IMG/VR virus record: IMGVR_UViG_3300023301_000008
Coordinates: 1-64,000 of that record
Direction: 5' to 3' (one strand)
DNA length: 64,000 bases
Source: a virus
How positions within the stretch are numbered: position 1 is the first letter of the stretch; every line of letters begins with the position of its first letter. Shown piece by piece: positions 17,833-28,400 of this stretch. A program made the position numbers and the translations under genes. The notes below the pieces were generated by a model. The model was not told the DNA's origin. It saw nothing but the letters and a program-made list of their open reading frames with translations, and did no database searches.

Positions 17833-17834
17833 CA

Positions 17835-18521
17835 ATGAAAACTACGGACGAAGGTTTTGCAGAACTAGTAAAAGACAGCACTAGTTACGCCGATATGTTT
17901 AGAAAAATGGGGTGGTCCACTAATGGAACATCATACCGACACTCACGTAAGCGAGTGGATAGGTTGGGGCTAGACACCTCCCACTTTAGGCGCGGGACTC
18001 CGGCTGGAGCACGGAAAAAGAATCAAACTGATCGACTAGTTCTAGGAGGTTTGGGGGGTTCAATTAGTGGCAGAGTTTTGAAGGCTGGTCTTCTTCAGAT
18101 CGGTAGGCAATATGTGTGCGAAGGTGTATACGAGTTTTGTGGCAATCTGGGGGTGTGGCAGGGCCAGGAATTGACACTAGATGTTGACCACATAAATGGA
18201 GTTCGAAGTGATAATAGACCCGACAACCTAAGATTTTTATGCAAGAACTGTCACGGAATTACTGAGACATTCGGGTCAAAAAATAGAAAAATTCGACCCC
18301 CGTCACGTTGCCACTGTGGTAGAGTGAAGGGTTCTCGATCTGTGGAATGTTCAGTTTGTTATGTATCTTCTGGAAGAAACAGAGAGTCTCAAACTAAAAA
18401 AATTGATTGGCCCTCCAGGGAAGAACTTCTACTGAGGCTAAGCAGAAGTAGCTACCTAGCGGTATCAAAAGAGTTAGGAGTGTCAGACAATGCAATACGT
18501 AAGCACCTGAAAAACAATTAA
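17835..18521 (+). CDS. HNH homing endonuclease, 228 aa
   Basis: Paralogue of the protein at 16019: the DVDHINGVRSDNRPDN core and CKNCHG lie at about residues 115-145, with CHCG/CSVC zinc pairs and a C-terminal helix-turn-helix (ELGVSDNAIRKHL). It begins two bases after tRNA-Glu(CTC) and ends five bases before tRNA-Glu(TTC), so it probably arrived by homing between two Glu tRNA genes. No ribosome site is visible. Confidence 0.87.
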   Translation: MKTTDEGFAELVKDSTSYADMFRKMGWSTNGTSYRHSRKRVDRLGLDTSHFRRGTPAGARKKNQTDRLVLGGLGGSISGRVLKAGLLQIGRQYVCEGVYEFCGNLGVWQGQELTLDVDHINGVRSDNRPDNLRFLCKNCHGITETFGSKNRKIRPPSRCHCGRVKGSRSVECSVCYVSSGRNRESQTKKIDWPSREELLLRLSRSSYLAVSKELGVSDNAIRKHLKNN

Positions 18522-18525
18522 ACAA

Positions 18526-18599
18526 GCCCCGTTGGTCTAGCGGTTATGATTCCAGATTTTCACTCTGAGAGATCGTCGGTTCGAATCCGACACGGGGTA
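18526..18599 (+). tRNA. tRNA-Glu(TTC)
   Basis: GCCCCGT/ACGGGGT acceptor (G1-T72 wobble), loop TTTTCAC on CAGA/TCTG, T arm GTCGG TTCGAAT CCGAC. Confidence 0.9.
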
Positions 18600-18622
18600 C
18601 GCAACAACTAAATAAAACACAC

Positions 18623-18704
18623 GCCGTGTTATCCAAGTGGACAAAGGGTGCTGACTGTAAATCAGATGTCAACGACTTCGTGAGTTCGAATCTCGCACGC
18701 GGTA
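18623..18704 (+). tRNA. tRNA-Tyr(GTA)
   Basis: Class II tRNA with long variable arm. Acceptor GCCGTGT/ACGCGGT, anticodon loop CTGTAAA. Confidence 0.92.
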
Positions 18705-18720
18705 CGCAATAAGTGAATAA

Positions 18721-18794
18721 GCCAGCTTAGCTCAGTAGGCACGAGCGCATGACTGAAAATTATGAGGACACCGGTTCGAAACCGGTAGCTGGCA
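18721..18794 (+). tRNA. tRNA-Phe(GAA)
   Basis: GCCAGCT/AGCTGGC acceptor, CATGA CTGAAAA TTATG anticodon arm, ACCGG TTCGAAA CCGGT T arm. Confidence 0.93.
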
Positions 18795-18836
18795 CAATGA
18801 GTGGGAGGAGGGTTTGATCACCTGACATCTACTCAG

Positions 18837-18882
18837 GGAGTGGCCGTTCTAGTAGAATCGATTCGGGACGGAATCACGCTCC
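18837..18882 (+). ncRNA. Structured spacer RNA between tRNA-Phe and tRNA-Leu
   Basis: GGAGTG pairs with CGCTCC. Inside, CCGT pairs with ACGG and TTCT-AGT-AGAA forms a small hairpin. Not a cloverleaf; role unknown. Confidence 0.3.
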
Positions 18883-18886
18883 ATTT

Positions 18887-18970
18887 GGGTGTATGGCGCA
18901 ACGGCGACGCAGCTGGCTTAGAACCAGTGACCTGAAAGATGGTTTCTCAGTTCGAATCTGAGTATGCCCA
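18887..18970 (+). tRNA. tRNA-Leu(TAG)
   Basis: GGGTGTA/TATGCCC acceptor, CTGG CTTAGAA CCAG anticodon arm, long class II variable arm, CTCAG TTCGAAT CTGAG T arm. Confidence 0.92.
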
Positions 18971-18985
18971 CAAAATTCAATACAA

Positions 18986-19060
18986 GCTCTCATAGCCCAA
19001 CTGGTAGGAGGCGGGTGTCTCAAAAGCACCACAGTGTGAGTTCGAATCTCACTGGGAGTA
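18986..19060 (+). tRNA. tRNA with CAA (Leu) anticodon but short variable loop
   Basis: GCTCTCA/TGGGAGT acceptor, GGTGT CTCAAAA GCACC anticodon arm, GTGAG TTCGAAT CTCAC T arm. The variable region is only five bases, unlike normal Leu tRNAs. Confidence 0.82.
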
Positions 19061-19061
19061 C

Positions 19062-19134
19062 GCGTTTATAGCCCAACGGCAGAGGCAGAAGATTTAAATC
19101 CTTCTCAGTGCGGGTTCGAGTCCCGCTAGACGTA
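19062..19134 (+). tRNA. tRNA with TAA (Leu) anticodon, short variable loop
   Basis: GCGTTTA/TAGACGT acceptor, loop TTTAAAT on a GAAG/CTTC stem with an A-C mismatch next to the loop, GCGGG TTCGAGT CCCGC T arm. Variable loop five bases. Confidence 0.8.
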
Positions 19135-19135
19135 C

Positions 19136-19204
19136 GCAGATATGTTGGAATAGGTAGACAAGCATCGCTGCAAGGGCGTGGGAGTTCAACTCTCCCTATC
19201 TGCA
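19136..19204 (+). tRNA. Shortened tRNA, anticodon uncertain (GCA or CAA)
   Basis: GCAGATA/TATCTGC acceptor and GGGAG TTCAACT CTCCC T arm are perfect, and the D arm is Leu-like. Only 16 bases remain for anticodon arm plus variable loop (ATCGC TGCAAGG GCGT), so it is about seven bases short. Probably degenerate. Confidence 0.5.
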
Positions 19205-19214
19205 CTAGATGAGA

Positions 19215-19243
19215 GCCTCAGGCATTGCGCCTGGGGCTTTTTT
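19215..19243 (+). terminator. Rho-independent terminator of first tRNA block
   Basis: GCCTCAGGC (19215-19223) pairs with GCCTGGGGC (19229-19237), then six T. The following promoter overlaps it. Confidence 0.9.
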
Positions 19244-19253
19244 CATGTAGACT
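19225..19253 (+). promoter_or_regulatory. Promoter of leaderless gene at 19261
   Basis: TTGCGC (19225-19230), 17 bases, TAGACT (19248-19253), seven bases to ATG. The -35 lies inside the terminator hairpin. Confidence 0.65.
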
Positions 19254-19260
19254 GCCTGTC

Positions 19261-19512
19261 ATGGAACACGAATTCATTTGTGAAGTCTGCGGACTCACCG
19301 AAATGCTGACTGACGAGCTGGCCTACACGAGCGGCTGGGACTACCCCCCTTTCGTAGGAGTGTGGGCAATCATCAGCCCCCGCGCATGCCCGGACTGCGA
19401 TATGACAGATACCGCATGGTGGGCCCTGCAGACCGGCACCTCGCCGGACGATCTCACGGATAAGCAGAAAGAAGCCGTAGAGAGAATTATCTATGAAGTG
19501 CCCCGGAGCTAG
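19261..19512 (+). CDS. Small zinc-motif protein, 83 aa
   Basis: Two Cys pairs (CEVC near residue 7 and CPDC near 45) suggest one zinc site. Leaderless: the -10 box TAGACT ends seven bases before the ATG. Followed by MazG-like and ThyX genes, so it may belong to a nucleotide metabolism group. Function unknown. Confidence 0.75.
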   Translation: MEHEFICEVCGLTEMLTDELAYTSGWDYPPFVGVWAIISPRACPDCDMTDTAWWALQTGTSPDDLTDKQKEAVERIIYEVPRS

Positions 19513-19534
19513 AGAAATTTGGTAGGGTAGACAC

Positions 19535-19978
19535 ATGACTCAAATACAAGAACTACAGAAGCGTATCGGTGAAACCAATGGCAAGAACGGGTTCAACGAG
19601 TACGAAAAACTTCCCCCCGAACACCAGAACAACTATATCGGCAACAAACTCATGCTGGTCGGCTCCGAACTGGCCGAGGCTCAAGACGAGCTGCGCACCG
19701 GGCACCCGATTGACGAAACGTATTACACCACTCCTCCAGTGCCTACCTCTCTGGCTGTGGAGTTCCCCAGCGGGGGGGACGCGCAAGAATACTGGAATGA
19801 GTATCAGGCCGCAATTCCTGGCCCCAAGAAGCCTGAGGGATTCCCCTCTGAGATTGCCGACGCAGTTATTCGACTGTTCGGAGTCGCCTACGAGACCGGC
19901 ATCGACCTAGAGGCCGCGATCCGGGAGAAGATGGCATACAACGACACCAGACCCTTCAAGCACGGAAAGAAGTTCTAG
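19535..19978 (+). CDS. MazG-like nucleotide pyrophosphohydrolase, 147 aa
   Basis: Two metal-binding helices are visible: SELAEAQDELR (about residue 47) and EIADAVIRLFG (about 107), the EExxE and ExxD pattern of all-alpha NTP pyrophosphatases. It would hydrolyse (d)NTPs or related alarmones. TAGGGT ends six bases before the ATG. It directly abuts ThyX. Confidence 0.78.
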   Translation: MTQIQELQKRIGETNGKNGFNEYEKLPPEHQNNYIGNKLMLVGSELAEAQDELRTGHPIDETYYTTPPVPTSLAVEFPSGGDAQEYWNEYQAAIPGPKKPEGFPSEIADAVIRLFGVAYETGIDLEAAIREKMAYNDTRPFKHGKKF

Positions 19979-20677
19979 ATGACTGATATAACACTAAGCT
20001 CGGAGGTCACCGTAAAGCTGATCCGAGCCCTTGCCTCAGATGATGGGGTTGTGCAGGCCGCACAGGTGTCTGTGAAGGGAGAGAATAGCCCCGAGACCGA
20101 TGCCCCACGGCTGATCAACTATCTGATGTCAAGCCGCCACGGGAGTCCATTCGAACACAACTCGCTCACTTTTTTCGTGGAAGCTCCAATCTTCGTGTTC
20201 CGCGAGTGGCACCGCCACAGGATCGCTTCGGTCAACGAGATGTCTGGCCGCTACTCCAAGCTCCTGCCTAAGTTCTACAGCCCCGCAGACGACCGCAAGC
20301 TGATCAACACGGGTACGAGCGCTCGCCCTGAGTTTGAGACCGGCACCGAGGGGCAGATGACCGTGGTCCAAGAAGGGGACCGCCTTGTGGCCCAAGTGGC
20401 ATGGAACGAGTACGAGATTCGCCTGAATTCTGGTATCGCCAACGAAATTGCGCGTACGGTACTTCCAGTCTCAATCTACTCCCAGATGTATTGGACGGTC
20501 AACGCTCGTTCGCTAATGAATTTTCTGTCCCTACGCACAGACTCACCGGACGCAGCAGTACGCTCGCGGCCACAGCGAGAGATTGAGCTGGGTGCTGAGC
20601 TGATGGAGGCCGAGTTCGCTCACCTAATGCCCGCCACACACGCTTCGTTCGTAGCGAACGGACGAATTGCTCCCTAA
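19979..20677 (+). CDS. thyX: Flavin-dependent thymidylate synthase ThyX, 232 aa
   Basis: Makes dTMP from dUMP with FAD and methylenetetrahydrofolate. The signature RHRxxSxNxxSxRY appears as RHRIASVNEMSGRY (about residue 77). The start is immediately after the preceding stop, so translation is coupled. Together with the nrd genes, dNMP kinase and nucleotidases it supplies DNA precursors. Confidence 0.95.
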   Translation: MTDITLSSEVTVKLIRALASDDGVVQAAQVSVKGENSPETDAPRLINYLMSSRHGSPFEHNSLTFFVEAPIFVFREWHRHRIASVNEMSGRYSKLLPKFYSPADDRKLINTGTSARPEFETGTEGQMTVVQEGDRLVAQVAWNEYEIRLNSGIANEIARTVLPVSIYSQMYWTVNARSLMNFLSLRTDSPDAAVRSRPQREIELGAELMEAEFAHLMPATHASFVANGRIAP

Positions 20678-20723
20678 GAAATAGGGTGTTTCGACAAATT
20701 GCTGTTTAGTGAGACAAAAGGGC

Positions 20724-20752
20724 TTGTAAGATGTTCCGATCTGTGCTAGAGT
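20724..20752 (+). promoter_or_regulatory. Promoter of a 22-codon minigene
   Basis: TTGTAA (20724-20729), 17 bases, TAGAGT (20747-20752), six bases to ATG. Confidence 0.65.
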
Positions 20753-20758
20753 AAGTAC

Positions 20759-20827
20759 ATGACGAAATCACAGCGCAAGCAAAGTACCGGGACAGTGAAT
20801 ACTGTGTCCGGTATCAGCGGGCTGTAA
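20759..20827 (+). CDS. Leaderless 22-aa minigene or small RNA
   Basis: Encodes MTKSQRKQSTGTVNTVSGIS plus two residues. A hairpin (ACCGGGACAG with CTGTGTCCGGT) lies in the coding part, and a terminator follows 25 bases after the stop. The unit, promoter to terminator, spans about 130 bases and could act as an RNA. Confidence 0.4.
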   Translation: MTKSQRKQSTGTVNTVSGISGL

Positions 20828-20852
20828 CCAAGTCATAAACAGACTTAGAAGA

Positions 20853-20884
20853 AGCCCCTGGTTGTAATAACCTAGGGGCTTTTC
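20853..20884 (+). terminator. Rho-independent terminator
   Basis: AGCCCCT (20853-20859) pairs with AGGGGCT (20874-20880), then TTTCT. It ends the minigene unit. Confidence 0.88.
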
Positions 20885-20943
20885 TATTGGAACGGAAAGC
20901 AACTTGTCCACTTGATGGGCTTGAAGTGTGTTATAATTATATA

Positions 20944-21483
20944 GTGGAAGATAAATGTAGATATCCTGAGTGTGGGAAAATTCCTGGAACTCGGCATCGT
21001 GGGCTGTGTCCGTATCACTATGGACACTGTAAAAACCTTGGAACACTGGAGGAGCACGCGAGACCGTCAAGAACTGGAAAAACCCACTTATTGACGAATG
21101 TAGATGAAAAAACTAGACACGGAACTTGTTCAGTGTGTGGGGCCACATCAGTATTCCTAAAAAGTAACAGCAGATGGTATTGCTCCAGCACCAGGAACTC
21201 TACGGACCGTAGACCATATAACGTGGCGTACTACTACAAGAACAAGTACGGACTGGAGCCAGACGGCAAACAAAAGCTTGCTGAATCCCAAGACAACAAA
21301 TGTCCAATTTGTGACACAGAAATTGACTTGACACGGACAAAATCTCACATCGATCATAACCACGAAACTGGAGTGATTCGAGGGGTTTTGTGTAACACGT
21401 GTAATATGGGTTTAGGGCTGTTCTACGAGAATAGAAATCTTCTACTAAAAGCTGTGGCTTACTTAGATAAGCACGAAAATTGA
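20944..21483 (+). CDS. Endonuclease VII-like His-Me nuclease, 179 aa
   Basis: The C-terminal half matches recombination endonuclease VII: CPIC, then SHIDHNHETGVIRGVLCNTCN. The N-terminal half has extra zinc pairs (CRYPEC, CSVC). I prefer start GTG 20944, because TATAAT ends exactly six bases before it, the leaderless spacing used here; an in-frame TTG at 20887 is an alternative. Placed among tRNAs, it is probably a homing endonuclease rather than the resolvase. Confidence 0.83.
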   Translation: MEDKCRYPECGKIPGTRHRGLCPYHYGHCKNLGTLEEHARPSRTGKTHLLTNVDEKTRHGTCSVCGATSVFLKSNSRWYCSSTRNSTDRRPYNVAYYYKNKYGLEPDGKQKLAESQDNKCPICDTEIDLTRTKSHIDHNHETGVIRGVLCNTCNMGLGLFYENRNLLLKAVAYLDKHEN

Positions 21484-21612
21484 AACAAAAATAGTGGATA
21501 AGTATTAATCTCCCCATAGTTCCAGTACGGTCCTGCCCAAACGCAGGTTACGACTGGTGTTGGCGTTCAGGAAGGGAGACTTGTGGGGTAGAGTGAACGT
21601 AGCCCCACGCCT
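21484..21612 (+). other. Structured spacer before Ser tRNAs, nothing assigned
   Basis: CCTGC/GCAGG and GTGGGG/CCCCAC hairpins and a TCTCCC/GGGAGA pairing can be drawn, but no cloverleaf or reading frame is convincing. Confidence 0.25.
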
Positions 21613-21696
21613 GGAGTGTGACCCTGACTGGTGGAGGGGTACGCTTGGAAAGCGTCACGTACCGAGAGGTATGAAGTTCGATCCTTCCGCGCTCCG
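21613..21696 (+). tRNA. tRNA-Ser(GGA)
   Basis: GGAGTGT/GCGCTCC acceptor, D stem CCCT/AGGG, loop TTGGAAA, variable arm GTACC-GAGA-GGTAT. Confidence 0.9.
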
Positions 21697-21747
21697 CATA
21701 CTCCCCTACGCAGCGTGTGAAATCCGTGACGGTGTTTGGGGTTAAAT

Positions 21748-21831
21748 GGATAGTAAACCGGCCAGGTGGTCGGGACAGCTTCGAAAACTGATCGCACCGA
21801 GAGGTGTGAGAATCGTGTTCTCTGCTATCCG
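21748..21831 (+). tRNA. tRNA-Ser(CGA)
   Basis: GGATAGT/GCTATCC acceptor, loop TTCGAAA on a CAG/CTG stem with an inner mismatch, variable arm GCACC-GAGA-GGTGT. Confidence 0.87.
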
Positions 21832-21835
21832 CACT

Positions 21836-21921
21836 GGAAAATAAATCTGGGGGGTCCCAGAACTAGTCTTGAAAACTAGCGGTACCTGAGAGGGTATGGG
21901 TTTCGAATACTCTGTTTTCCG
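21836..21921 (+). tRNA. tRNA-Ser(TGA)
   Basis: GGAAAAT/GTTTTCC acceptor, CTAGT CTTGAAA ACTAG anticodon arm, class II variable arm. Confidence 0.92.
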
Positions 21922-21925
21922 CTTT

Positions 21926-22009
21926 GGAGGGTAATTCAGTCTGGTGGCTGAGCATCCCTGCTAAGGATCGCGCACCGAAAGGTGTAGGTTTCGATTACTT
22001 TGCCCTCCG
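21926..22009 (+). tRNA. tRNA-Ser(GCT)
   Basis: GGAGGGT/GCCCTCC acceptor, ATCC CTGCTAA GGAT anticodon arm, variable arm GCACC-GAAA-GGTGT. Confidence 0.92.
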
Positions 22010-22012
22010 CGA

Positions 22013-22041
22013 TTGACTTGCAGGTTTCGATCTGTTAGACT
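22013..22041 (+). promoter_or_regulatory. Promoter upstream of tRNA-Lys
   Basis: TTGACT (22013-22018), 17 bases, TAGACT (22036-22041). Confidence 0.8.
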
Positions 22042-22060
22042 AGTTTTACCCGACCCTCAT

Positions 22061-22131
22061 GGGCCTATAGCTGAGGGGATTAGCATCTGGCTCTTAACCA
22101 GAGGACGCGGGTCCGATTCCCGCTGGGCCTA
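22061..22131 (+). tRNA. tRNA-Lys(CTT)
   Basis: GGGCCTA/TGGGCCT acceptor with wobbles, TCTGG CTCTTAA CCAGA anticodon arm, GCGGG TCCGATT CCCGC T arm. Confidence 0.9.
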
Positions 22132-22262
22132 CAATGAGAGATAAGCTTTCTGTTCTAGAGCAGGAAGTCTAAGACTCAGGAACACAGGAAACAACTTGTA
22201 GTCTAGACCTTCAGTTGCTCCTCCCGTACAGTCGGGCGAACCGGGTTTCGATAAGCCCACTT
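22132..22262 (+). other. Structured spacer between Lys tRNAs
   Basis: A CTTTCTG/CAGGAAG hairpin and a T-arm-like GGG TTTCGATAAG CCC are visible. No complete tRNA can be folded; possibly a decayed tRNA. Confidence 0.25.
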
Positions 22263-22334
22263 GGGTCTCTCGTATATCGGAAAATACTGTAGGCTTTTAC
22301 CCTTCAAAGCGGGGTTCGACTCCCCGGGGACCCA
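22263..22334 (+). tRNA. tRNA-Lys(TTT)
   Basis: GGGTCTC/GGGACCC acceptor, D stem GTAT/ATAC, loop CTTTTAC, CGGGG TTCGACT CCCCG T arm. Confidence 0.88.
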
Positions 22335-22378
22335 CTCGACCGTTCCGTTAGCCGGTCTCTAAAATGTTAGCGGGGTGC

Positions 22379-22449
22379 GTGGGTGTAGCTTAATGGTAAA
22401 GTACGACTCTTCCAAAGTTGTGATGCCGGTCCGATTCCGGTCACCCGCT
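22379..22449 (+). tRNA. tRNA-Gly(TCC)
   Basis: GTGGGTG/CACCCGC acceptor, CGACT CTTCCAA AGTTG anticodon arm, GCCGG TCCGATT CCGGT T arm. Confidence 0.9.
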
Positions 22450-22455
22450 CTCTAA

Positions 22456-22526
22456 CCCCCTGTAGCTCAGAGGAAGAGCAATCACCTTTAAGCGATGGGC
22501 CGAGATATCGTAATTCTCTGGGGGGA
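22456..22526 (+). tRNA. Irregular tRNA, best anticodon TAA
   Basis: CCCCCTG/TGGGGGG acceptor and GCTC/GAGC D stem are clear. The anticodon stem TCACC/GATGG has one mismatch around loop TTTAAGC, and the variable region is very short. Other registers are possible, so identity is unsure. Confidence 0.5.
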
Positions 22527-22543
22527 CGCATGAAACTTAGGTA

Positions 22544-22588
22544 GTCAGGCATCTAAGGAACTGCGCCCGCCGTGTGCGGTGGCCTGAC
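22544..22588 (+). ncRNA. Structured RNA element between tRNAs
   Basis: GTCAGGC (22544-22550) pairs perfectly with GCCTGAC (22582-22588), and an inner CCGC-CGTGT-GCGG hairpin is present. Not a tRNA; role unknown. Confidence 0.4.
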
Positions 22589-22590
22589 AT

Positions 22591-22661
22591 GTGGATATGG
22601 TGAAATGGTATCATCATAGCTTGCCAAGCTATGGGCGCGGGTTCGATTCCCGCTATCCGCT
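22591..22661 (+). tRNA. tRNA-Gly(GCC)
   Basis: GTGGATA/TATCCGC acceptor, ATAGC TTGCCAA GCTAT anticodon arm, GCGGG TTCGATT CCCGC T arm. Confidence 0.93.
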
Positions 22662-22689
22662 CGATAAGGGTACGCGACCCTTAGAAAGT

Positions 22690-22743
22690 CCTTTGATGCC
22701 TCTCGTTAAGTGGGAGAGGGTAGTTGGGAATCCAATTCAAAGG
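22690..22743 (+). ncRNA. Three-way-junction RNA element between tRNAs
   Basis: CCTTTGA/TCAAAGG closes a junction with two perfect hairpins, CCTCTC-9-GAGAGG and TTGG-GAAT-CCAA. It resembles a tRNA missing one arm. Function unknown. Confidence 0.45.
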
Positions 22744-22748
22744 CATTT

Positions 22749-22821
22749 GCCTCCTTAGCTCATCAGGTAGAGCGCCACTCTTGTAAAGTGGATGTGATCG
22801 GTTCGATTCCGGTAGGTGGCA
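22749..22821 (+). tRNA. tRNA-Thr(TGT)
   Basis: GCCTCCT/AGGTGGC acceptor with one T-T mismatch, CCACT CTTGTAA AGTGG anticodon arm, T arm ATCGG TTCGATT CCGGT. Confidence 0.9.
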
Positions 22822-22840
22822 CGGATACAGCATAGCTCAA

Positions 22841-22897
22841 GCAGGGCCCCAGTCGCGGTACCACGCGATCAGACGGTCCCCGAAGTGCTCCCCCTGC
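22841..22897 (+). ncRNA. Structured RNA element between Thr tRNAs
   Basis: GCAGGG (22841-22846) pairs with CCCTGC (22892-22897), and TCGCG-GTACCA-CGCGA is a perfect inner hairpin. Role unknown. Confidence 0.38.
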
Positions 22898-22966
22898 CGT
22901 TCGTGACAAATGGTTCTAGACGGCGGTAAGGGTAAGGAGAGGTTGGCTCTTCTCTGGTTTCCACCC

Positions 22967-23038
22967 GCCTCGTTAGCTCAGTGGTAGAGCACTTCTCTCG
23001 TAAAGAAGGGGTCGTCAGTTCAATCCCGACACGAGGCT
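22967..23038 (+). tRNA. tRNA-Thr(CGT)
   Basis: GCCTCGT/ACGAGGC acceptor, CTTCT CTCGTAA AGAAG anticodon arm. T stem GTCAG/CCGAC has one mismatch. Confidence 0.9.
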
Positions 23039-23087
23039 CAATAAAAGACCTAAGGGGGAAATGCCCTCGGAGGAGAAAGATAGCATC

Positions 23088-23225
23088 ATGGCAACACAAT
23101 CAGAAGCAGTAGCCTTGGCATTGGATACACTGGTCAAAATGGTGGAGGACAATGAAACGCCCTACGGGACGCGACTTGAAGCCATCAGAGAGATTTTCAG
23201 ATACGACATGAGTCTACGACAGTAG
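23088..23225 (+). CDS. Small helical protein, 45 aa
   Basis: Starts MATQSEAVALALDTLV. GGAGGAG lies about 12 bases before the ATG. Amphipathic helical composition, no known domain. A genuine small gene inserted in the tRNA array. Confidence 0.6.
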   Translation: MATQSEAVALALDTLVKMVEDNETPYGTRLEAIREIFRYDMSLRQ

Positions 23226-23257
23226 CTTGAAGAGGGGTGCGACTCTAACGCACAATT

Positions 23258-23329
23258 GCCGCCTTATATCAGTGGTAGATGGCGAACTTGGTAAGTTCGA
23301 GGCCGTGAGTTCAATCCTCACAGGCGGCA
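23258..23329 (+). tRNA. tRNA-Thr(GGT)
   Basis: GCCGCCT/AGGCGGC acceptor, CGAAC TTGGTAA GTTCG anticodon arm, GTGAG TTCAATC CTCAC T arm. Confidence 0.92.
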
Positions 23330-23347
23330 CGGCAGCAGACGAATATC

Positions 23348-23475
23348 GGGGTTGCACCTGAGAGTTTCGTCTAACCTAGGCATCGGATTTTTCAGTTCCG
23401 CGTGCGGTCTAGGGACACATGGGGGCTTATGGCTTTGTACTCCAAAAACTGACAGGCTGGCGAGGATGCAACTCC
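23348..23475 (+). ncRNA. Long-range paired RNA element between tRNAs
   Basis: GGGGTTGCA (23348-23356) pairs over nine bases with TGCAACTCC (23467-23475, one wobble). It encloses CCTAG/CTAGG and CCGC-GT-GCGG helices. No coding frame; candidate structured RNA. Confidence 0.45.
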
Positions 23476-23486
23476 GGACCAGCTAT

Positions 23487-23558
23487 GATCGTATAGCTCA
23501 GCGGTAGAGCTGCAGTGTGACACACTGCCTGTCGGGGGTTCAAATCCCTCTACGATCA
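23487..23558 (+). tRNA. tRNA-Val(GAC)
   Basis: GATCGTA/TACGATC acceptor, GCAGT GTGACAC ACTGC anticodon arm, GGGGG TTCAAAT CCCTC T arm. Confidence 0.92.
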
Positions 23559-23561
23559 CGC

Positions 23562-23590
23562 TTGACTAACAGACCCAAGTCTGGTAGACT
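23562..23590 (+). promoter_or_regulatory. Promoter upstream of tRNA-Val(TAC)
   Basis: TTGACT (23562-23567), 17 bases, TAGACT (23585-23590). Confidence 0.8.
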
Positions 23591-23668
23591 AAAGAAGTAG
23601 TGGTTGGGTTTCTTCAAGCTAACTAGGATTGTAACCTTCCGGCAGGTACCGCTGGAAACAACTCCCCC

Positions 23669-23737
23669 GGACCGGGGGCTGGTGTTCGATTGACTTTTAC
23701 ACGGTCGATTTGCTGAGTCCGATTCTCAGTCGGTCTA
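23669..23737 (+). tRNA. tRNA-Val(TAC) with reduced D arm
   Basis: GGACCGG/TCGGTCT acceptor, six-bp anticodon stem with loop TTTACAC, CTGAG TCCGATT CTCAG T arm. Only about 14 bases replace the D arm. An overlapping palindrome CCCCCGG-A-CCGGGGG could compete with folding. Confidence 0.6.
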
Positions 23738-23762
23738 CAAGGCTTGCATCCTACTGCTGTAT

Positions 23763-23833
23763 TCCTCTTTAGCTCCAAGGCGGAGCAAACGGCTGTTAAC
23801 CGTAAGGGTCAGGTTCGATTCCTGAAGGGGGAG
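23763..23833 (+). tRNA. tRNA-Asn(GTT)
   Basis: TCCTCTT/AGGGGGA acceptor, ACGG CTGTTAA CCGT anticodon arm, TCAGG TTCGATT CCTGA T arm. Confidence 0.92.
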
Positions 23834-23922
23834 CGACGAGGGTTTTTGCAAGTTTTACTCGGAGTGGAGGAAAAATGTGACGGATGCGGTCCAGAGTTCT
23901 AGAAATGGAGCCGTATCAACCT

Positions 23923-23995
23923 GTCTCCATAGCTCAGTGGATAGAGCGATTGACTACGCATCAATAGGCCGGGGGTTCAAATCCCTCTGGGGATA
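23923..23995 (+). tRNA. tRNA-Arg(ACG)
   Basis: GTCTCCA/TGGGGAT acceptor, TTGA CTACGCA TCAA anticodon arm, GGGGG TTCAAAT CCCTC T arm. A34 would need editing to inosine by a host TadA. The 89 bases before it hold nothing I recognise. Confidence 0.9.
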
Positions 23996-24000
23996 CGCAT

Positions 24001-24072
24001 GCCTCTATAACTCAACGGAAGAGTAGTAGCCTTCGAAGCTAAAAGTTGGGAGTTCGAATCTCTCTGGGGGCA
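24001..24072 (+). tRNA. tRNA-Arg(TCG)
   Basis: GCCTCTA/TGGGGGC acceptor, TAGC CTTCGAA GCTA anticodon arm, GGGAG TTCGAAT CTCTC T arm. Confidence 0.9.
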
Positions 24073-24126
24073 CTAGAGGGGGAGCGACCTCTAGGACACC
24101 TGGGTGTCCGGTAAAAACGCTCGTAT

Positions 24127-24197
24127 TCCCCGTTAGTGTAACGGTAACACGACTGACTCTGACTCAGTTATTCTTGGTTCGAATCCAGGATGGGGAG
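24127..24197 (+). tRNA. tRNA-Gln(CTG)
   Basis: TCCCCGT/ATGGGGA acceptor, ACTGA CTCTGAC TCAGT anticodon arm. Preceded by a perfect GGACAC-CTGG-GTGTCC hairpin in the spacer. Confidence 0.92.
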
Positions 24198-24214
24198 CAA
24201 CATTCAAGACACTA

Positions 24215-24243
24215 TTGACAATGACAGAAAGAACAGGTAGTCT
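24215..24243 (+). promoter_or_regulatory. Promoter of leaderless AAA ATPase gene
   Basis: TTGACA (24215-24220), 17 bases, TAGTCT (24238-24243), six bases to ATG 24250. Confidence 0.8.
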
Positions 24244-24249
24244 CAGAAC

Positions 24250-25416
24250 ATGACACATTTTATCAAACAAGGATCGCGCTACATGGTGGCCCCAGCTGAG
24301 GCTATCGATATGCGCAAGACCCTTCCTGAAGGGACGTACACGGTAAAGTTTGACGAAATGAGCGGATCGTTCTACCTAGAGGTCATCGAAGACTTCACAG
24401 TAGCCACCAAGATTTACGGCGACACCACCAAGCATGCCAACCGAATCCTCGAAACTTTCGCGGACCGCCCCAACTCTACCGGAGTCATGCTCTCGGGGGA
24501 GAAAGGCAGCGGCAAGACGCTCTTGGCCAAGGTCATTAGCGTCCGTGCTCGCAAGGCCGGTATCCCCACCATTGTCATCAACAACGCGTGGTGCGGTGAA
24601 GTATTCAACGGGTTCATTCAAATGATTGAACAGCCTACTGTCATCATCTTTGACGAGTTCGAGAAAGTGTACGACCGAAACGAGCAGGAAAAAATGCTCA
24701 CTCTGTTGGATGGTGTCTACCCCAGCAAGAAACTCTTTATCCTCACGTGCAACGACAAGTACCGCGTGAATACGCAGATGACCAACCGCCCCGGTCGAAT
24801 CTTTTACCGCATGGACTACGCTGGTCTGGAGAACTCATTCATCATGGAGTATTGCGCCGATAACCTTGAGAACAAGGGCCACACGGACTCCATCTGCAGG
24901 ATCGCCATGGCGTTCTCGGAGTTCAACTTTGACATACTCAAAGCTTTGATCGAAGAGATGAACCGCTACAAGGAAACTCCTCAACAGGCCATGGAAATGC
25001 TCAACGCCAAGCCTGAGTTCAGCGAGGGTGCTGATTACATGGTTCAGATCAAGGTCAACGATGTCAAGATTGATAAGGACAAGTTTGACGACTACTGCTG
25101 GAGCGGAAACCCGCTGGCTGGCACTGTACGAGTCGGCTACTACACCTCAGGCCCGGTCAGAAAAAAGCGCAGTCGCCCGGGCCGTGATACAAGCCCTGAG
25201 GCTCCGGTTTCCGCGAAGGAACTGATGGACAATCTCTTCGGTGACGATGACGTGGCTGAGGAGTCCGCATACACGTACCAGGACTTCACAAGCGCGGACC
25301 TCAAGGTGGTAGATTCTGCCGGAGGCAAGTTCAAGTTCGTGAACGGTGCTGGCTCCAAGCTCACCCTCACACGAATCCGTGCTCCGAAGTCCAACGTGGA
25401 CTACAGCGCGTTCTAG
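24250..25416 (+). CDS. AAA+ ATPase, 388 aa
   Basis: Single AAA+ module: Walker A GEKGSGKT (about residue 83), Walker B VIIFDEFEK (about 133), sensor-1 LTCND (about 165) and an arginine region NRPGR (about 178). The C-terminal 130 residues are unlike known partners and partly basic. Typical of large-phage ATPases of unknown client. Leaderless from its own promoter. Confidence 0.88.
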   Translation: MTHFIKQGSRYMVAPAEAIDMRKTLPEGTYTVKFDEMSGSFYLEVIEDFTVATKIYGDTTKHANRILETFADRPNSTGVMLSGEKGSGKTLLAKVISVRARKAGIPTIVINNAWCGEVFNGFIQMIEQPTVIIFDEFEKVYDRNEQEKMLTLLDGVYPSKKLFILTCNDKYRVNTQMTNRPGRIFYRMDYAGLENSFIMEYCADNLENKGHTDSICRIAMAFSEFNFDILKALIEEMNRYKETPQQAMEMLNAKPEFSEGADYMVQIKVNDVKIDKDKFDDYCWSGNPLAGTVRVGYYTSGPVRKKRSRPGRDTSPEAPVSAKELMDNLFGDDDVAEESAYTYQDFTSADLKVVDSAGGKFKFVNGAGSKLTLTRIRAPKSNVDYSAF

Positions 25417-25457
25417 TAGCAACCGGCGAGGTGCCCCCGGTAAAATTGGCACCGTAT

Positions 25458-25531
25458 TCCCCGGTAGCACAATTGGTAGTTGCGGCAGTCTTTGAAACTG
25501 TAGGTTGTTGGTCCGAATCCAACTCGGGGAG
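25458..25531 (+). tRNA. tRNA-Gln(TTG)
   Basis: TCCCCGG/TCGGGGA acceptor, GCAGT CTTTGAA ACTGT anticodon arm, GTTGG TCCGAAT CCAAC T arm. A GGTGCC/GGCACC hairpin precedes it. Confidence 0.92.
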
Positions 25532-25553
25532 CACTACTTATCCACTATTTTCT

Positions 25554-25624
25554 GCCTCTCTAGCTCAGCGGAAGAGCACATCTTTCCTAAAGATGTGGCC
25601 CCGGTTCGATTCCGGGGAGGGGCA
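25554..25624 (+). tRNA. tRNA-Arg(CCT)
   Basis: GCCTCTC/GAGGGGC acceptor, CATCT TTCCTAA AGATG anticodon arm, CCCGG TTCGATT CCGGG T arm. Confidence 0.92.
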
Positions 25625-25625
25625 C

Positions 25626-25654
25626 TTGCATTGAGTCTCCTCAGATGATAGACT
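25626..25654 (+). promoter_or_regulatory. Promoter of leaderless gene at 25661
   Basis: TTGCAT (25626-25631), 17 bases, TAGACT (25649-25654), six bases to ATG. Confidence 0.75.
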
Positions 25655-25660
25655 GCTCTA

Positions 25661-25906
25661 ATGACTGACATAGAAACAGAACACGAACCCTGGACCGTCA
25701 ACACCTTGATCGAAATTCTCGGGGAATATGACAAAGACGCGAAGATTAACGTCACCATGTACCCCTCTTGGAGAGGCATCTTCGTGATGATTCTTTGGAG
25801 AGTTCCGTACGTTGGTCGCTGGTCTCTCAAGCACAACCTTGATGTCCTTCCAAGCATGCCCATCACTGCGGTGTCCACCTCAGATAGTGGAGTGGATATT
25901 GGTTAA
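25661..25906 (+). CDS. Hypothetical protein, 81 aa
   Basis: Begins MTDIETEHEPWTV. The middle is hydrophobic and aromatic (RGIFVMILWRVPYVG) but too polar for a confident membrane span. Leaderless from a dedicated promoter. No family recognised. Confidence 0.65.
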   Translation: MTDIETEHEPWTVNTLIEILGEYDKDAKINVTMYPSWRGIFVMILWRVPYVGRWSLKHNLDVLPSMPITAVSTSDSGVDIG

Positions 25907-25910
25907 GGGC

Positions 25911-25939
25911 TTGCACTCCTAGTGCAGACCTGCTAGAAT
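25911..25939 (+). promoter_or_regulatory. Promoter of leaderless gene at 25946
   Basis: TTGCAC (25911-25916), 17 bases, TAGAAT (25934-25939), six bases to ATG. Confidence 0.75.
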
Positions 25940-25945
25940 CTTGAT

Positions 25946-26176
25946 ATGGCAAAAGACAGAGATGAATTCAGTGACGTAAAATCAGGCACGGCTGTTGCAG
26001 ACCTTATAGGTAGAAGGCATGGTCGTGTAGTGGTCGTAATCGGCAAAGGTATGTTCCGAATCCGCTGGGAGGACGACGAAGACGAGATTCTTCAGCGTCA
26101 CCAGCTCCTGGTTCGGTACACCACCGAGAGCCCCAAATTCATCCCAGGGCGCGTCAAGGTCTCAGAGAGGCCGTGA
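25946..26176 (+). CDS. Small basic beta-rich protein, 76 aa
   Basis: Residues 20-60 alternate strands with GRRHGRVVVVIG and FRIRWEDD, resembling a small KOW- or SH3-like barrel; this is only suggestive. Leaderless. A 12-codon frame (26190-26228) follows but has weak support. Confidence 0.65.
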   Translation: MAKDRDEFSDVKSGTAVADLIGRRHGRVVVVIGKGMFRIRWEDDEDEILQRHQLLVRYTTESPKFIPGRVKVSERP

Positions 26177-26283
26177 TAAGGTAGTCCTATGAGAAACGAA
26201 ATCTACACTGACTATGACACTATTTAGGTCATAGATTCGAAGCGGGAACCGACCCGCTATCTATGGCCGGAAATGAGGTCATT

Positions 26284-26928
26284 ATGTCGAGAACCGACAA
26301 AGATCGTCCCTACTGGGTCAGGCAGAACGATGACGGAACAAACACCGATCACGGCCACCTTAAGCTGGGCAAGACGATCTACAGAACGTATTACGTGTAT
26401 GACGAAAATGGCAAGGTCGTCTTCCACGAAGAGCCACAGTTCTATTCTGCAAGCCTCATTGTGCAGAACGTCAGTGGACTTACACGCTACTACACCATTT
26501 ACACCTTCTCTGAAGAGGCAGTCAATGAGGCGCGTGAGCTAGTCAAAAAGGGCAAACCATACGATCAGGTGCAAACCGGTGTGCGGCTCGTGGCTCAGAC
26601 AGAGAAGGTCGTGGCCGTGGTGCTCAAGGACTACTGCACCGAGGGTGAAAAGCTCACGGGCGGTGGCTACGGGCACTATGACGATCTGCCCTGCACCCCA
26701 GCAATGGCTCCAGGCGACTGGGGGTATTGCTACAGCTCTTTTAGCAGTAGCGGAAAGAAAAAGCGCGGATACTACGATATGCGTAATGGCTTGTCTCGAC
26801 GTACGTCCCGAGACTATCTGCGTGGTGTCGTCGATAGCTTTAACACCTACGGAGAGGCCTTCGATGACGATGACGAGCTGCCCCTGACCGCACAGCACCG
26901 TCACTCTATGTTGTGGGACCTTTACTAG
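26284..26928 (+). CDS. Hypothetical protein, 214 aa
   Basis: I prefer ATG 26284, with GAGGT just upstream; an in-frame ATG at 26263 is the alternative. Rich in Tyr and Gly, with a Cys/Gly-rich central part and an acidic patch (DDDDE) near the C-terminus. No domain recognised. Confidence 0.7.
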   Translation: MSRTDKDRPYWVRQNDDGTNTDHGHLKLGKTIYRTYYVYDENGKVVFHEEPQFYSASLIVQNVSGLTRYYTIYTFSEEAVNEARELVKKGKPYDQVQTGVRLVAQTEKVVAVVLKDYCTEGEKLTGGGYGHYDDLPCTPAMAPGDWGYCYSSFSSSGKKKRGYYDMRNGLSRRTSRDYLRGVVDSFNTYGEAFDDDDELPLTAQHRHSMLWDLY

Positions 26929-26935
26929 AAAAGGC

Positions 26936-26964
26936 TTGACGACAGGGTAAGAGCCTGATAGAGT
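26936..26964 (+). promoter_or_regulatory. Promoter of small gene and macro-domain gene
   Basis: TTGACG (26936-26941), 17 bases, TAGAGT (26959-26964), six bases to ATG 26971. Confidence 0.78.
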
Positions 26965-26970
26965 AAGAGT

Positions 26971-27078
26971 ATGATAACCAACGTATACCCTGTAGCACTG
27001 CCGGGAGCGGTACACGAGACCCTGATGTGGGCGAACGAAGTGGCCCACTTGCAGACGATCCTCTGCGTGAAAGGCTAA
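26971..27078 (+). CDS. Leaderless small protein, 35 aa
   Basis: Begins MITNVYPVALPGAVHE. Exact leaderless spacing. It ends three bases before the macro-domain start, so it may serve as a translated leader for that gene. No family known. Confidence 0.55.
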   Translation: MITNVYPVALPGAVHETLMWANEVAHLQTILCVKG

Positions 27079-27081
27079 ACC

Positions 27082-27552
27082 ATGGGAATGATTATCCACC
27101 AAACAGGAGACCTGTTCACAACTGACGCACGTGCTATTGGGCATGGTGTTAATGTCGATGGCATTATGGGCTCAGGCATTGCTTTGCAGTTCAAAGAACG
27201 CTTCCCCGATATGCACAATGAGTACAAAAAGCTCTGCAAGTCGGGTGAACTGGAGCCTGGAGGCCTTATGGTCTACGAACAGGCTCCGGGGCTGTATATT
27301 TACAACCTCGCGTCACAGGATCGCCCGGGGGCTAACGCCTCCTACGAATGGCTGTCTGAGAGCTTCAGACGTGCGCTGGGTGTTGCCGAGGCTGATGGGT
27401 TGAAAGAGATTGCTCTCCCACGGATTGGTTCTGGTATCGGTGGGCTCAATGAGCGTCAGGTTGAGGGCATGATTGCAGACATCATTGCCCCTACCCGGGT
27501 GAACGTAGAAATTTGGTCCCCCCCTCAAAAGGACATTTATGTGGTAATCTAG
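27082..27552 (+). CDS. Macro-domain ADP-ribose-binding protein, 156 aa
   Basis: Complete macro domain. GHGVNVDGIMGSGIA at residues 17-31 and LPRIGSGIGGL near 113 are the ADP-ribose loops. The pattern resembles the ALC1/TARG1/DarG-type macro domains, which remove ADP-ribose from proteins or DNA, or process ADP-ribose-1''-phosphate. In a phage it could reverse a host ADP-ribosylating defence (for example DarT) or recycle RNA-repair by-products. The substrate is not readable. Confidence 0.85.
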   Translation: MGMIIHQTGDLFTTDARAIGHGVNVDGIMGSGIALQFKERFPDMHNEYKKLCKSGELEPGGLMVYEQAPGLYIYNLASQDRPGANASYEWLSESFRRALGVAEADGLKEIALPRIGSGIGGLNERQVEGMIADIIAPTRVNVEIWSPPQKDIYVVI

Positions 27553-27559
27553 TAGTAAT

Positions 27560-27631
27560 GGTGGTGTGGCTGACTGGTTTAGGCGCTGCTCTGCAAAAGC
27601 AGATAAGGGAGTTCAATTCTCCCCATTACCT
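27560..27631 (+). tRNA. tRNA-Cys(GCA)
   Basis: GGTGGTG/CATTACC acceptor with two wobbles, CTGCT CTGCAAA AGCAG anticodon arm, GGGAG TTCAATT CTCCC T arm. Confidence 0.88.
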
Positions 27632-27635
27632 CCAC

Positions 27636-27709
27636 CTCTCCATAGCTCAGCGGATTAGAGCAGAAGGTTTCTACCCTTCGTGCCGGGGGTTCGACTCCCT
27701 CTGGAGAGA
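27636..27709 (+). tRNA. tRNA-Arg(TCT)
   Basis: CTCTCCA/TGGAGAG acceptor, GAAGG TTTCTAC CCTTC anticodon arm. Its 3' end GGAGAG lies 4 bases before the next ATG and could double as a ribosome site. Confidence 0.92.
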
Positions 27710-27710
27710 C

Positions 27711-27974
27711 ATGACAAACAAAAACGAAGACATGAAATTGAGCCTCCACCCGGACGCTTTGGATAGAAACTGCGGGTCCTTGGACGTGTCCACGGACTTT
27801 GATTCCTCTTGCCTCCCTACAACCTGGATTTGGCTGACCTTCAACACTCCGTATGAGCCGTGGTTCAGACTGACGTTTGCTGAGGCGGCGGAATTGCGAG
27901 ACCGACTCAGCGACGAGCTGGTTGTCTACGACACACTGACCGATGAGCAGAAGCGCATTGCCGATACGGAGTAG
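27711..27974 (+). CDS. Hypothetical protein, 87 aa
   Basis: Starts MTNKNEDMKLSLHPDALD, one base after the tRNA-Arg discriminator. The middle has WIWLTFNTPYEPWFRLTF, then a helical acidic end. No family recognised. Confidence 0.65.
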   Translation: MTNKNEDMKLSLHPDALDRNCGSLDVSTDFDSSCLPTTWIWLTFNTPYEPWFRLTFAEAAELRDRLSDELVVYDTLTDEQKRIADTE

Positions 27975-27989
27975 GTGCTATGATGTTGG

Positions 27990-28079
27990 ATGGCTTCCGC
28001 TTGCAAATGCCGTCACAGGTGCTCACAGCCGAATTGTGGTTGTGGGTCATCCTGTGATTATTGTTCCCATAAAGCCTAG
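27990..28079 (+). CDS. Cys-rich 29-aa protein, metallothionein-like
   Basis: Eight Cys and two His in 29 residues (CKCRHRC, CGCGSSCDYCSH). TATGAT with a TG extension ends five bases before the ATG, so it is probably leaderless. The stop codon overlaps the next promoter's -35. Metal binding is inferred from composition. Confidence 0.5.
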   Translation: MASACKCRHRCSQPNCGCGSSCDYCSHKA

Positions 28080-28105
28080 ACAAACGATATAGAGTATGCT
28101 AGAAT
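28077..28105 (+). promoter_or_regulatory. Promoter of Ile/Ala tRNA group
   Basis: TAGACA (28077-28082), 17 bases, TAGAAT (28100-28105), about 15 bases before tRNA-Ile. Confidence 0.7.
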
Positions 28106-28119
28106 GTAAATTCACGCAC

Positions 28120-28193
28120 TGGGGTTTAGCTCATCTGGTTAGAGCGCGTCACTGATAATGACGAGGCACGCAGTTCAAGTCTGCGAATCCCAA
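28120..28193 (+). tRNA. tRNA-Ile(GAT)
   Basis: TGGGGTT/AATCCCA acceptor, GTCA CTGATAA TGAC anticodon arm, CGCAG TTCAAGT CTGCG T arm. The only tRNA here followed directly by CCA (28194-28196). Confidence 0.92.
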
Positions 28194-28210
28194 CCAATAC
28201 AATTCAATAT

Positions 28211-28283
28211 GGGGGTCTAGCTCAATGGGTAGAGCGTCGGTTTTGCAAATCGAAGGCAGGGGGATCGTAGCCCCCGACCTCCA
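28211..28283 (+). tRNA. tRNA-Ala(TGC)
   Basis: GGGGGTC/GACCTCC acceptor, TCGGT TTTGCAA ATCGA anticodon arm. T loop is ATCGTAG instead of TTCGANT. Confidence 0.9.
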
Positions 28284-28288
28284 CTTAT

Positions 28289-28361
28289 GGGCCTTTAGCA
28301 CAATTGGTAGTGCACATTTCTGGCAGGAATGAGGTTGCGCGTTCGAGTCGCGTAGGGTCCA
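28289..28361 (+). tRNA. tRNA-Ala(GGC)
   Basis: GGGCCTT/AGGGTCC acceptor with wobbles, CATTT CTGGCAG GAATG anticodon arm, GCGCG TTCGAGT CGCGT T arm. Confidence 0.9.
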
Positions 28362-28400
28362 CTCCTATTTTACAGGTTTTCCTGCAATTTTAAGAAAGAC

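Follow-up and report, generated by a model that had tools for sequence, protein, structure and literature searches.

Some 24 genes of a phage genome fragment are very likely leaderless and transcribed from promoters that are fused to their start codons, as judged from the DNA sequence. The layout combines a fixed promoter-to-ATG geometry with near-exclusive use of AUG, few Shine-Dalgarno-like 4-mers and a pyrimidine at position -1; it is restricted to particular regions and recurs in related phages. In the explanation that we favor, the host housekeeping RNA polymerase would recognize a near-consensus promoter, composed of a TTGACA-like -35, a spacer of usually 17 nt and a TAnnnT -10 (mostly TAG-nnT). 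As the -10 ends 6 nt before the ATG, transcription would start at the A of the start codon, and ribosomes would start on the 5'-terminal AUG without Shine-Dalgarno contact, probably by 70S-type initiation. The sigma factor would be the host sigma-A and the timing early.

A fragment related to large Microbacterium phages

The stretch of DNA analyzed here (the window, 64,000 nucleotides) makes up nearly all of an IMG/VR virus record of 64,366 bp with a G+C content of 52%. It harbors 33 tRNA genes on the plus strand (15320-28362) and homologues of DNA polymerase, helicase, primase, ribonucleotide reductase (RNR), rIIA and rIIB. A megablast search with 25 kb of the window (20001-45000) against 50,697 phage records returned no match. 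The rIIA and RNR proteins match the 186-195 kb Microbacterium phages Pumpernickel, Zooman, A3Wally, Cece and Big4, the RNR protein also matches Arthrobacter phages of ~194 kb, and several window genes are present in Pumpernickel and Cece in similar order. Based on the matches to Microbacterium phages and the gene order in Pumpernickel and Cece, the window is taken as a putative fragment of a large actinophage. Exact direct terminal repeats span 19,963 bp in Pumpernickel, 17,079 bp in Zooman and 18,079 bp in Cece.

Several genes of the window display further peculiarities. The RNR large subunit (37261-40635, minus strand, 1124 aa) contains an intein-like insert at approximately residues 181-587, with Hint and LAGLIDADG-type matches, and two adjoining minus-strand genes between the helicase and the RNR small subunit (32830-34116 and 34569-36053) match homing/HNH endonuclease families. 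The plus-strand gene 46511-46870 is readable only as the N-terminal part (119 aa) of a nicotinamide phosphoribosyltransferase (NAMPT); its counterparts in Pumpernickel and Cece have ~500 codons and are annotated as nicotinate ribosyltransferase.

Promoters end 6 nt before ATG

A preliminary description of this DNA had proposed a motif search at fixed distance from gene starts. Both strands were scanned, independently of gene calls, for promoter boxes defined by a TTGACA-like -35, a 16-18 nt spacer and a TAnnnT -10. The window contains 35 such boxes, compared with 11.7 (sd 3.3) in 30 first-order Markov shuffles. The search yielded a sharp spike: 12 of the 35 boxes are followed by an ATG at a gap of precisely 6 nt from the -10, compared with 0.23 boxes in shuffles, every other gap from 0 to 30 nt has an ATG at one box at most, and neither GTG nor TTG is found at gap 6 among the 35 boxes. 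A strict pattern (TTGAC, 18 nt, TAnnnT, 6 nt, ATG) occurs 10 times in the whole record and not once in a control read backward.

Eighteen start sites had been named individually in the preliminary description, which claimed a TAGACT-like -10 ending 6-7 nt before the start codon. All of them indeed carry TAnnnT at this distance (gap 6 at 16 sites, gap 7 at 19261 and 57924), always in front of ATG, and the third base of the -10 is G at 16 of the 18. The -35 had been described as usually TTGACA/T with a 17-base spacer; at least four of six matches to TTGACA at 16-18 nt are present at 14 of the 18 sites, 12 of these 14 with a spacer of 17, and the sites without such a -35 are 19261, 25661, 25946 and 51694. 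Our own count of 24 genes agrees with the earlier estimate of about 25 and consists of the 18 named sites plus 648, 19535, 46511, 51946, 57236 and 57563. Excluded were 17907 and 60382 (minus), whose ORFs start inside or lie against other ORFs though they pass the -35/ORF filter, as well as 16019 and 34338 (minus), which have a -10 at gap 6 and no -35. Window genes were called with our own codon-score script, not with a standard gene finder. The predicted leaderless genes and their promoters are as follows.

612-650, plus strand: -10 TAGACT, 6 nt, ATG of 648-869; -35 matches at 3/6 only; ORF not chosen by the codon-based gene caller
19225-19263, plus strand: -10 TAGACT, 7 nt, ATG of 19261-19512; -35 matches at 3/6 only, with a terminator-like hairpin in its place
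19499-19537, plus strand: -10 TAGGGT, 6 nt, ATG of 19535-19978; no -35
24215-24252, plus strand: TTGACA-17-TAGTCT, 6 nt, ATG of an AAA ATPase gene (24250-25416)
25626-25663, plus strand: -10 TAGACT, 6 nt, ATG of 25661-25906; weak -35 TTGCAT
25911-25948, plus strand: -10 TAGAAT, 6 nt, ATG of 25946-26176; weak -35 TTGCAC
26936-26973, plus strand: TTGACG-17-TAGAGT, 6 nt, ATG of 26971-27078 (35 aa), which precedes gene 27082
42329-42367, minus strand: TGGACA-18-TACAAT, 6 nt, ATG of 42331-42074
43269-43306, minus strand: TTGACA-17-TATTGT, 6 nt, ATG of 43271-42789
45168-45205, plus strand: TTGACT-17-TAGACT, 6 nt, ATG of 45203-45517; the upstream ORF ends at TGA of the -35
46476-46513, plus strand: TTGATT-17-TAGCGT, 6 nt, ATG of 46511-46870 (NAMPT N-terminal fragment)
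47516-47553, plus strand: TTGATT-17-TAGGGT, 6 nt, ATG of 47551-48273 (RlaP-like nucleotidyltransferase)
48299-48336, plus strand: TTGACA-17-TAGACT, 6 nt, ATG of 48334-48918 (phosphoesterase)
49132-49169, plus strand: TTGACT-17-TAGTAT, 6 nt, ATG of 49167-49427; upstream stop at TGA of the -35
51692-51729, minus strand: -10 TAGAAT, 6 nt, ATG of 51694-51134; no -35 (2/6)
51910-51948, plus strand: -10 TAGACT, 7 nt, ATG of 51946-52509 (5'-nucleotidase NT5C); weak -35
53599-53636, plus strand: TTGACA-17-TAGAGT, 6 nt, ATG of the rIIA homologue (53634-55886)
57201-57238, plus strand: TTTACT-17-TAGACT, 6 nt, ATG of 57236-57553; a terminator-like hairpin of 17 pairs lies upstream (57148-57185)
57528-57565, plus strand: TAGATA-17-TAGACT, 6 nt, ATG of 57563-57823; ORF 57236-57553 ends at TAG of the -10
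57888-57926, plus strand: TTGACT-17-TAGACT, 7 nt, ATG of the tRNA nucleotidyltransferase gene (57924-58613)
58782-58819, plus strand: TTGACA-17-TAGACT, 6 nt, ATG of 58817-58984; ORF 58610-58807 ends at TAG of the -10
59232-59269, plus strand: TTGACT-17-TAGACT, 6 nt, ATG of 59267-59479; TGA of the -35 is the upstream stop
60050-60087, plus strand: TTGACT-17-TAGGGT, 6 nt, ATG of 60085-60303
63498-63536, plus strand: TTGACA-18-TAGACT, 6 nt, ATG of 63534-63827; TGA of the -35 is the upstream stop

The hairpin at 19261, which lies with a T run over the -35 and spacer, was seen by eye and not listed by the terminator scan. The rIIA homologue, put forward earlier as a 750-aa example of the layout, retains this position: its promoter is of the TTGACA-17-TAGAGT type at 6 nt, and residue 1 of the protein aligns with the annotated start of Zooman rIIA.

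Shine-Dalgarno, initiator and start-codon signals

The claim that no Shine-Dalgarno site is present was largely borne out, with SD-like 4-mers in front of 1/24 window leaderless genes versus 18/24 comparison genes; both sets were chosen by us, the former from the -10 geometry and the latter from the codon-script gene calls. A duplex-energy measure of Shine-Dalgarno strength did not separate these two window sets (p = 0.16). The same measure separates the sets in Cece (p = 4e-4), where SD-like 4-mers are found at 10 of 40 leaderless genes versus 43 of 49 non-leaderless genes with at least 7 nt upstream.

A pyrimidine precedes the ATG at 21/24 window leaderless genes versus 9/24 comparison genes. 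Among unique sites it is present at 10/11 in the window, 13/15 in Pumpernickel, 33/37 in Zooman, 34/37 in Cece, 10/12 in the IMG/VR record G002 and 5/6 in Racecar (p = 0.09); the baseline before all ATGs is 38-42%. Bacterial RNA polymerase usually prefers to initiate at a purine (+1) that follows a pyrimidine (-1), and the pyrimidine bias therefore provides support, separate from that of the -10, for a transcription start at the A of the ATG. With respect to the start codon itself, all 40 Cece genes with TAnnnT at gap 6 or 7 use ATG, versus 105 of 136 others (p = 2e-4). Pumpernickel harbors five GTG candidates at gap 6, 1.6 being expected, and an AUG-only rule is hence not absolute. The almost exclusive use of AUG is consistent with translation from a 5'-terminal AUG.

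The same promoter type precedes tRNA genes and rIIB

Promoters of this type were also identified without a start codon at gap 6, namely ahead of tRNA genes and of rIIB.

17577-17605, plus strand: TTGACA-17-TAGTGT, 20 nt before tRNA-Asp, no start codon
22013-22041, plus strand: TTGACT-17-TAGACT, 19 nt before tRNA-Lys
28077-28105, plus strand: TAGACA-17-TAGAAT, 14 nt before tRNA-Ile
55900-55928, plus strand: TTGACA-17-TAGACT ahead of rIIB (55983), which is leadered, with the Shine-Dalgarno-like sequence GAAAGGAAG before its ATG

Six of the 33 tRNA genes (15320, 17626, 17762, 22061, 22379 and 28120) have a TAnnnT 13-20 nt upstream together with a -35 of at least 4/6 matches. At a distance of 10-22 nt, random positions of the same region average 0.9 and none of 500 draws reaches six; with a -35 of at least 5/6, three tRNA promoters remain at this distance versus 0.28 at random (1/500). 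The excess is weaker if distances of up to 59 nt are allowed, with 8 versus 4.1 (24/500) and, for a -35 of at least 5/6, 3 versus 1.4 (85/500). Features of host sigma-A promoters are thus found in the sequence, comprising a TTGACA-like -35, a 16-18 nt spacer and TAnnnT, also at non-coding RNA genes.

The layout recurs in other actinophages and varies between orthologues

The preliminary description spoke of the layout in one phage. It belongs to a group of phages, as the gap-6 spike recurs in Pumpernickel (17/67 promoters), Zooman (44/99) and Cece (48/83; terminal-repeat duplicates included in all three), leaving 15, 37 and 37 sites, respectively, after duplicate removal. A spike is also present in G002 (12/100) and, weakly, in Racecar (8/132, six unique), and NootNoot has 6/80 at gap 6 and likewise six at gap 3. 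No gap-6 spike was detected among the promoters of T4 (1/30), Peregrin (2/33) and Zion (0/19). The strict pattern yields 13 sites in Pumpernickel, 33 in Zooman, 33 in A3Wally and 40 in Cece, with backward-read controls of zero throughout. Counts elsewhere, with controls in brackets, are Racecar 4 (1), Atuin 3 (0), NootNoot 5 (0), Trina 1 (0), Peregrin 2 (1) and T4 1 (0), and the pattern is absent from Zion, vB_OspM_OC and Seuss. Twelve IMG/VR relatives, some of them near-copies, harbor 0 to 10 sites each (controls 0). Among the matches listed by pattern scans of IMG/VR and of genome contigs, occurrences were scattered, and they enter none of our conclusions. The -10 itself varies, from TAGACT in the window to TAAGCT/TAGGCT in Zooman and TATAAT in G002, and the gap stays at 6. 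In Cece, the ATG of the pattern coincides with the annotated start at 25 of the 26 sites compared (of 40; the plus strand of annotated stretches was examined). The remaining site (L224, Cece 153197-153232) starts an 11-codon ORF that extends, in a different frame, over the annotated start of gene 263.

Orthologues in Pumpernickel, Zooman or Cece were identified for 12 of the 23 window leaderless genes tested, and a -10 at gap 6 or 7 is present in 14 of the 28 resulting pairs (gap 6 in 12, gap 7 in two, any other gap from 0 to 20 in at most one). The comparison set of 28 genes, which included 19535, itself leaderless in the window, scored 11 of 54 pairs, distributed over 19535 (3), 27082 (3), 41038 (2), 45514 (2) and 49427 (1). 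A TAnnnT at gap 6 or 7 precedes all three orthologues found of 19535, and the gap-6 -10 of the phosphoesterase gene 48334 is shared by its orthologues in Cece, Zooman and Pumpernickel (3/3). The orthologues of gene 648 in Pumpernickel and Zooman likewise carry TAnnnT at gap 6, and for 42331 two of three relatives have the -10 at this gap. Other genes differ between phages: 43271 is leaderless by this measure in Zooman and Cece (TATAAT) and leadered in Pumpernickel, the tRNA nucleotidyltransferase gene 57924 is leaderless in Cece and not in Zooman, and the RlaP-like nucleotidyltransferase gene 47551 is not leaderless in Zooman and Cece. None of the three rIIA orthologues has a -10 at gap 6 or 7. 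The first residue of the AAA ATPase (24250) corresponds to an ATG in 12 IMG/VR relatives as well as in Pumpernickel, where the orthologue is leaderless; a -10 at gap 6 or 7 is found in 0/12 IMG/VR orthologues, and 11 of these 12 display, by eye, a TATAAT/TACAAT-like box ~30-37 nt upstream. Collectively, the layout is gained and lost gene by gene while the class persists, and it is not fixed per gene.

Three small leaderless plus-strand ORFs (26971-27078, 45203-45517 and 49167-49427) precede genes 27082, 45514 and 49427, orthologues of which carry a leaderless -10 in three, two and one relatives, respectively; for 27082, the orthologue itself has TAnnnT at gap 6 or 7 in all three relatives. Possibly, a small gene was inserted behind an old promoter-ATG at each of these loci.

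Leaderless promoters are confined to particular regions and gene classes

The layout had moreover been described as genome-wide, which the distribution of sites contradicts. Counting sites with a -35 of at least 4/6 and an ORF of at least 35 codons, successive 10-kb segments of the window contain 0, 1, 2, 0, 7, 6 and 3. The replication block (903-15074) and the RNR genes (36-41 kb) lack such sites with a -35; weaker sites stand at 648 and, with gap 5, at 41038. In Cece, 40 of 176 annotated plus-strand genes have TAnnnT at gap 6 or 7. When genes preceded by a space of 7 nt or more are taken as likely heads of transcription units, 35/69 early and terminal-repeat genes carry the layout, compared with 0/15 structural genes. 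It is likewise absent from all 26 Cece structural genes, most of which carry Shine-Dalgarno-like sites, and from 13 neighboring minus-strand genes. The first 20 kb of Cece harbor 16 sites and the stretch from 20 to 90 kb none. Among 82 annotated Pumpernickel genes of the 100-150 kb region, seven have the layout including a -35, each with an ATG at gap 6. In Cece and in the window, the layout does not extend to all gene classes. Terminal repeats enter the cell first in phages such as T5 and SPO1; by analogy, early expression of the terminal-repeat and leaderless genes appears plausible.

Promoters overlap stop codons of upstream genes

Of the 138 sites counted over the window, Pumpernickel, Zooman and Cece, 116 have a clear codirectional ORF upstream. 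Its stop codon is formed by the first three bases of the -10 (TAA/TAG) in 26 and by the TGA of the -35 in 25 of these 116 (51 in total), a tally that includes both terminal-repeat copies and orthologous promoters of different phages. Stop-to-ATG distances of 9 nt occur at 28 junctions, 23 of them leaderless, and lengths of 7, 8, 10, 11 and 12 nt total 4 to 9. With a spacer of 17 and a gap of 6, the TGA of the -35, the TAA/TAG of the -10 and the TGA of ATGA fall into three different frames; of 98 such sites in the four phages, 54 contain the full set of three stops.

Selection for stop codons was considered as a reason for TAG/TAA in the -10 and rejected, as these triplets are equally common in promoters without a leaderless start (47/74) and in leaderless promoters without an overlapping ORF (31/49). 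Stop overlap may therefore be automatic where promoters lie over gene ends, as the consensus holds stop triplets. Upstream ORFs enter in the three frames 39, 34 and 16 times (of 89), which differs only modestly from an even distribution. Terminator-like sites are slightly more frequent than in shuffles (20 versus 12.8, sd 4.5; 15 versus 11.8, sd 4.1); with so few over chance, transcripts from upstream probably read through into these units, which are not isolated. A private terminator for each gene found no support beyond two cases, in scans and by eye. One might speculate, with considerable doubt, that the junction serves as a compact cassette that ends an upstream gene in any frame and starts the next within ~38 bp. 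A gene lacking a Shine-Dalgarno site would then depend on its own promoter for translation and yield no protein from read-through RNA, so that each early gene would be insulated and easily gained or lost.

Alternative explanations

The leaderless reading of the preliminary description is supported, as a prediction from sequence, by the exact gap of 6, few SD-like 4-mers, the -1 pyrimidine/+1 purine, the tRNA promoters and the recurrence at annotated starts. A tight fixed distance to the ATG would also suit start-associated sequences like those of some mycobacteriophages, which are conserved at starts and act in translation. That the boxes are translation signals of this kind and not promoters is nevertheless highly improbable, considering the coupled -35 at 17 nt, the like boxes before tRNA genes and the leadered rIIB, and the -1 pyrimidine. 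Transcripts might instead originate mainly from upstream promoters, the starts being reached in leadered or read-through RNA and the gap-6 promoters being secondary, as the scarcity of terminators and the codirectional ORFs upstream of 116/138 sites in four phages would allow. However, SD-like 4-mers are mostly missing and read-through RNA would thus be expected to be poorly translated, and we consider this scenario unlikely.

A stronger competitor, to which we assign somewhat less than even chances, holds that nothing here is phage-specific and that these are host-style leaderless genes as on actinobacterial chromosomes; it is compatible with transcription from start-codon-fused promoters and denies only a special use by phages. 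According to the figure given in PMC3160421, an average of 19.2% of actinobacterial genes are predicted to be leaderless. The uniformity that the preliminary description found striking is real and regular, yet less exotic than it appeared. In 200 kb of each of two genomes of Arthrobacter's order, the excess of -10 boxes at gap 6 or 7 amounts to 8.1 and 7.9% for ATG and to 2.0 and 4.1% for GTG, and other actinophages reach 3.7% (Racecar), 5.9% (NootNoot), 6.4% (Zion) and 7.6% (Peregrin) of called genes; these figures require the -10 only, ignore the -35 and rely on genes called by our codon-score script. As the unrelated actinophages Peregrin, Zion and NootNoot are moderately positive, the bare -10 signal is not confined to the group studied here. 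By contrast, the window, Pumpernickel, Zooman and Cece show ATG excesses of 30, 18, 20 and 23% of called genes, with GTG values of -1.5, +1.1, -1.0 and -0.7%, respectively; the -10-only measure with ATG gives no excess in G002 (-0.4%) and T4 (-6.3%). Moreover, the full TTGAC layout occurs 0-4 times per genome in 79 genomes of Arthrobacter's order (at all in 35/79), compared with 10 in the 64-kb record and 40 in the 187-kb Cece genome (duplicates included). The group is marked by a higher rate, a near-consensus -35 and almost no GTG.

Comparison with known systems

The mechanism is already known; new are its scale, the near-exclusive use of AUG and the stop-promoter-start overlap. In our searches of the open literature, we found no description of this layout in Microbacterium phages. 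The predicted leaderless class resides in cultivable actinophages (Zooman, Cece, A3Wally and Pumpernickel). These would allow leaderless initiation to be followed in infected cells, where the leadered genes of each virus could serve as internal controls. The class would also provide annotators with a start-codon rule, and it exemplifies junctions at which promoter, stop codon and start codon share bases.

Many middle and late transcripts of the Thermus phages phiYS40 and P23-45 are reportedly leaderless, as mapped by experiment. Those phages belong to a different host phylum and a middle/late program, whereas here non-structural and terminal-repeat genes are concerned and leaderlessness is predicted. 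More generally, phage transcripts are described as often leaderless in PMC5312081. The leaderless genes of Actinobacteria (PMC3160421) and Deinococcus-Thermus (PMC12340547), as far as these sources describe them, share with the present sites a TAnnnT ~12 nt upstream of the start codon, a start codon at or near the predicted 5' end and the lack of a Shine-Dalgarno site; the phages differ from them by a near-consensus -35, almost exclusive AUG, confinement to particular regions and frequent overlap of promoter and stop. Also close are the promoters PL1, PR2 and PL2 of cluster O mycobacteriophages (PMC4351075), which are likewise SigA-like, have a predicted start at the first base of the start codon and belong to actinophages. 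Judged by description only, cluster O has three such promoters, whereas Zooman and Cece harbor dozens per genome, accompanied here by shuffle and orthologue controls.
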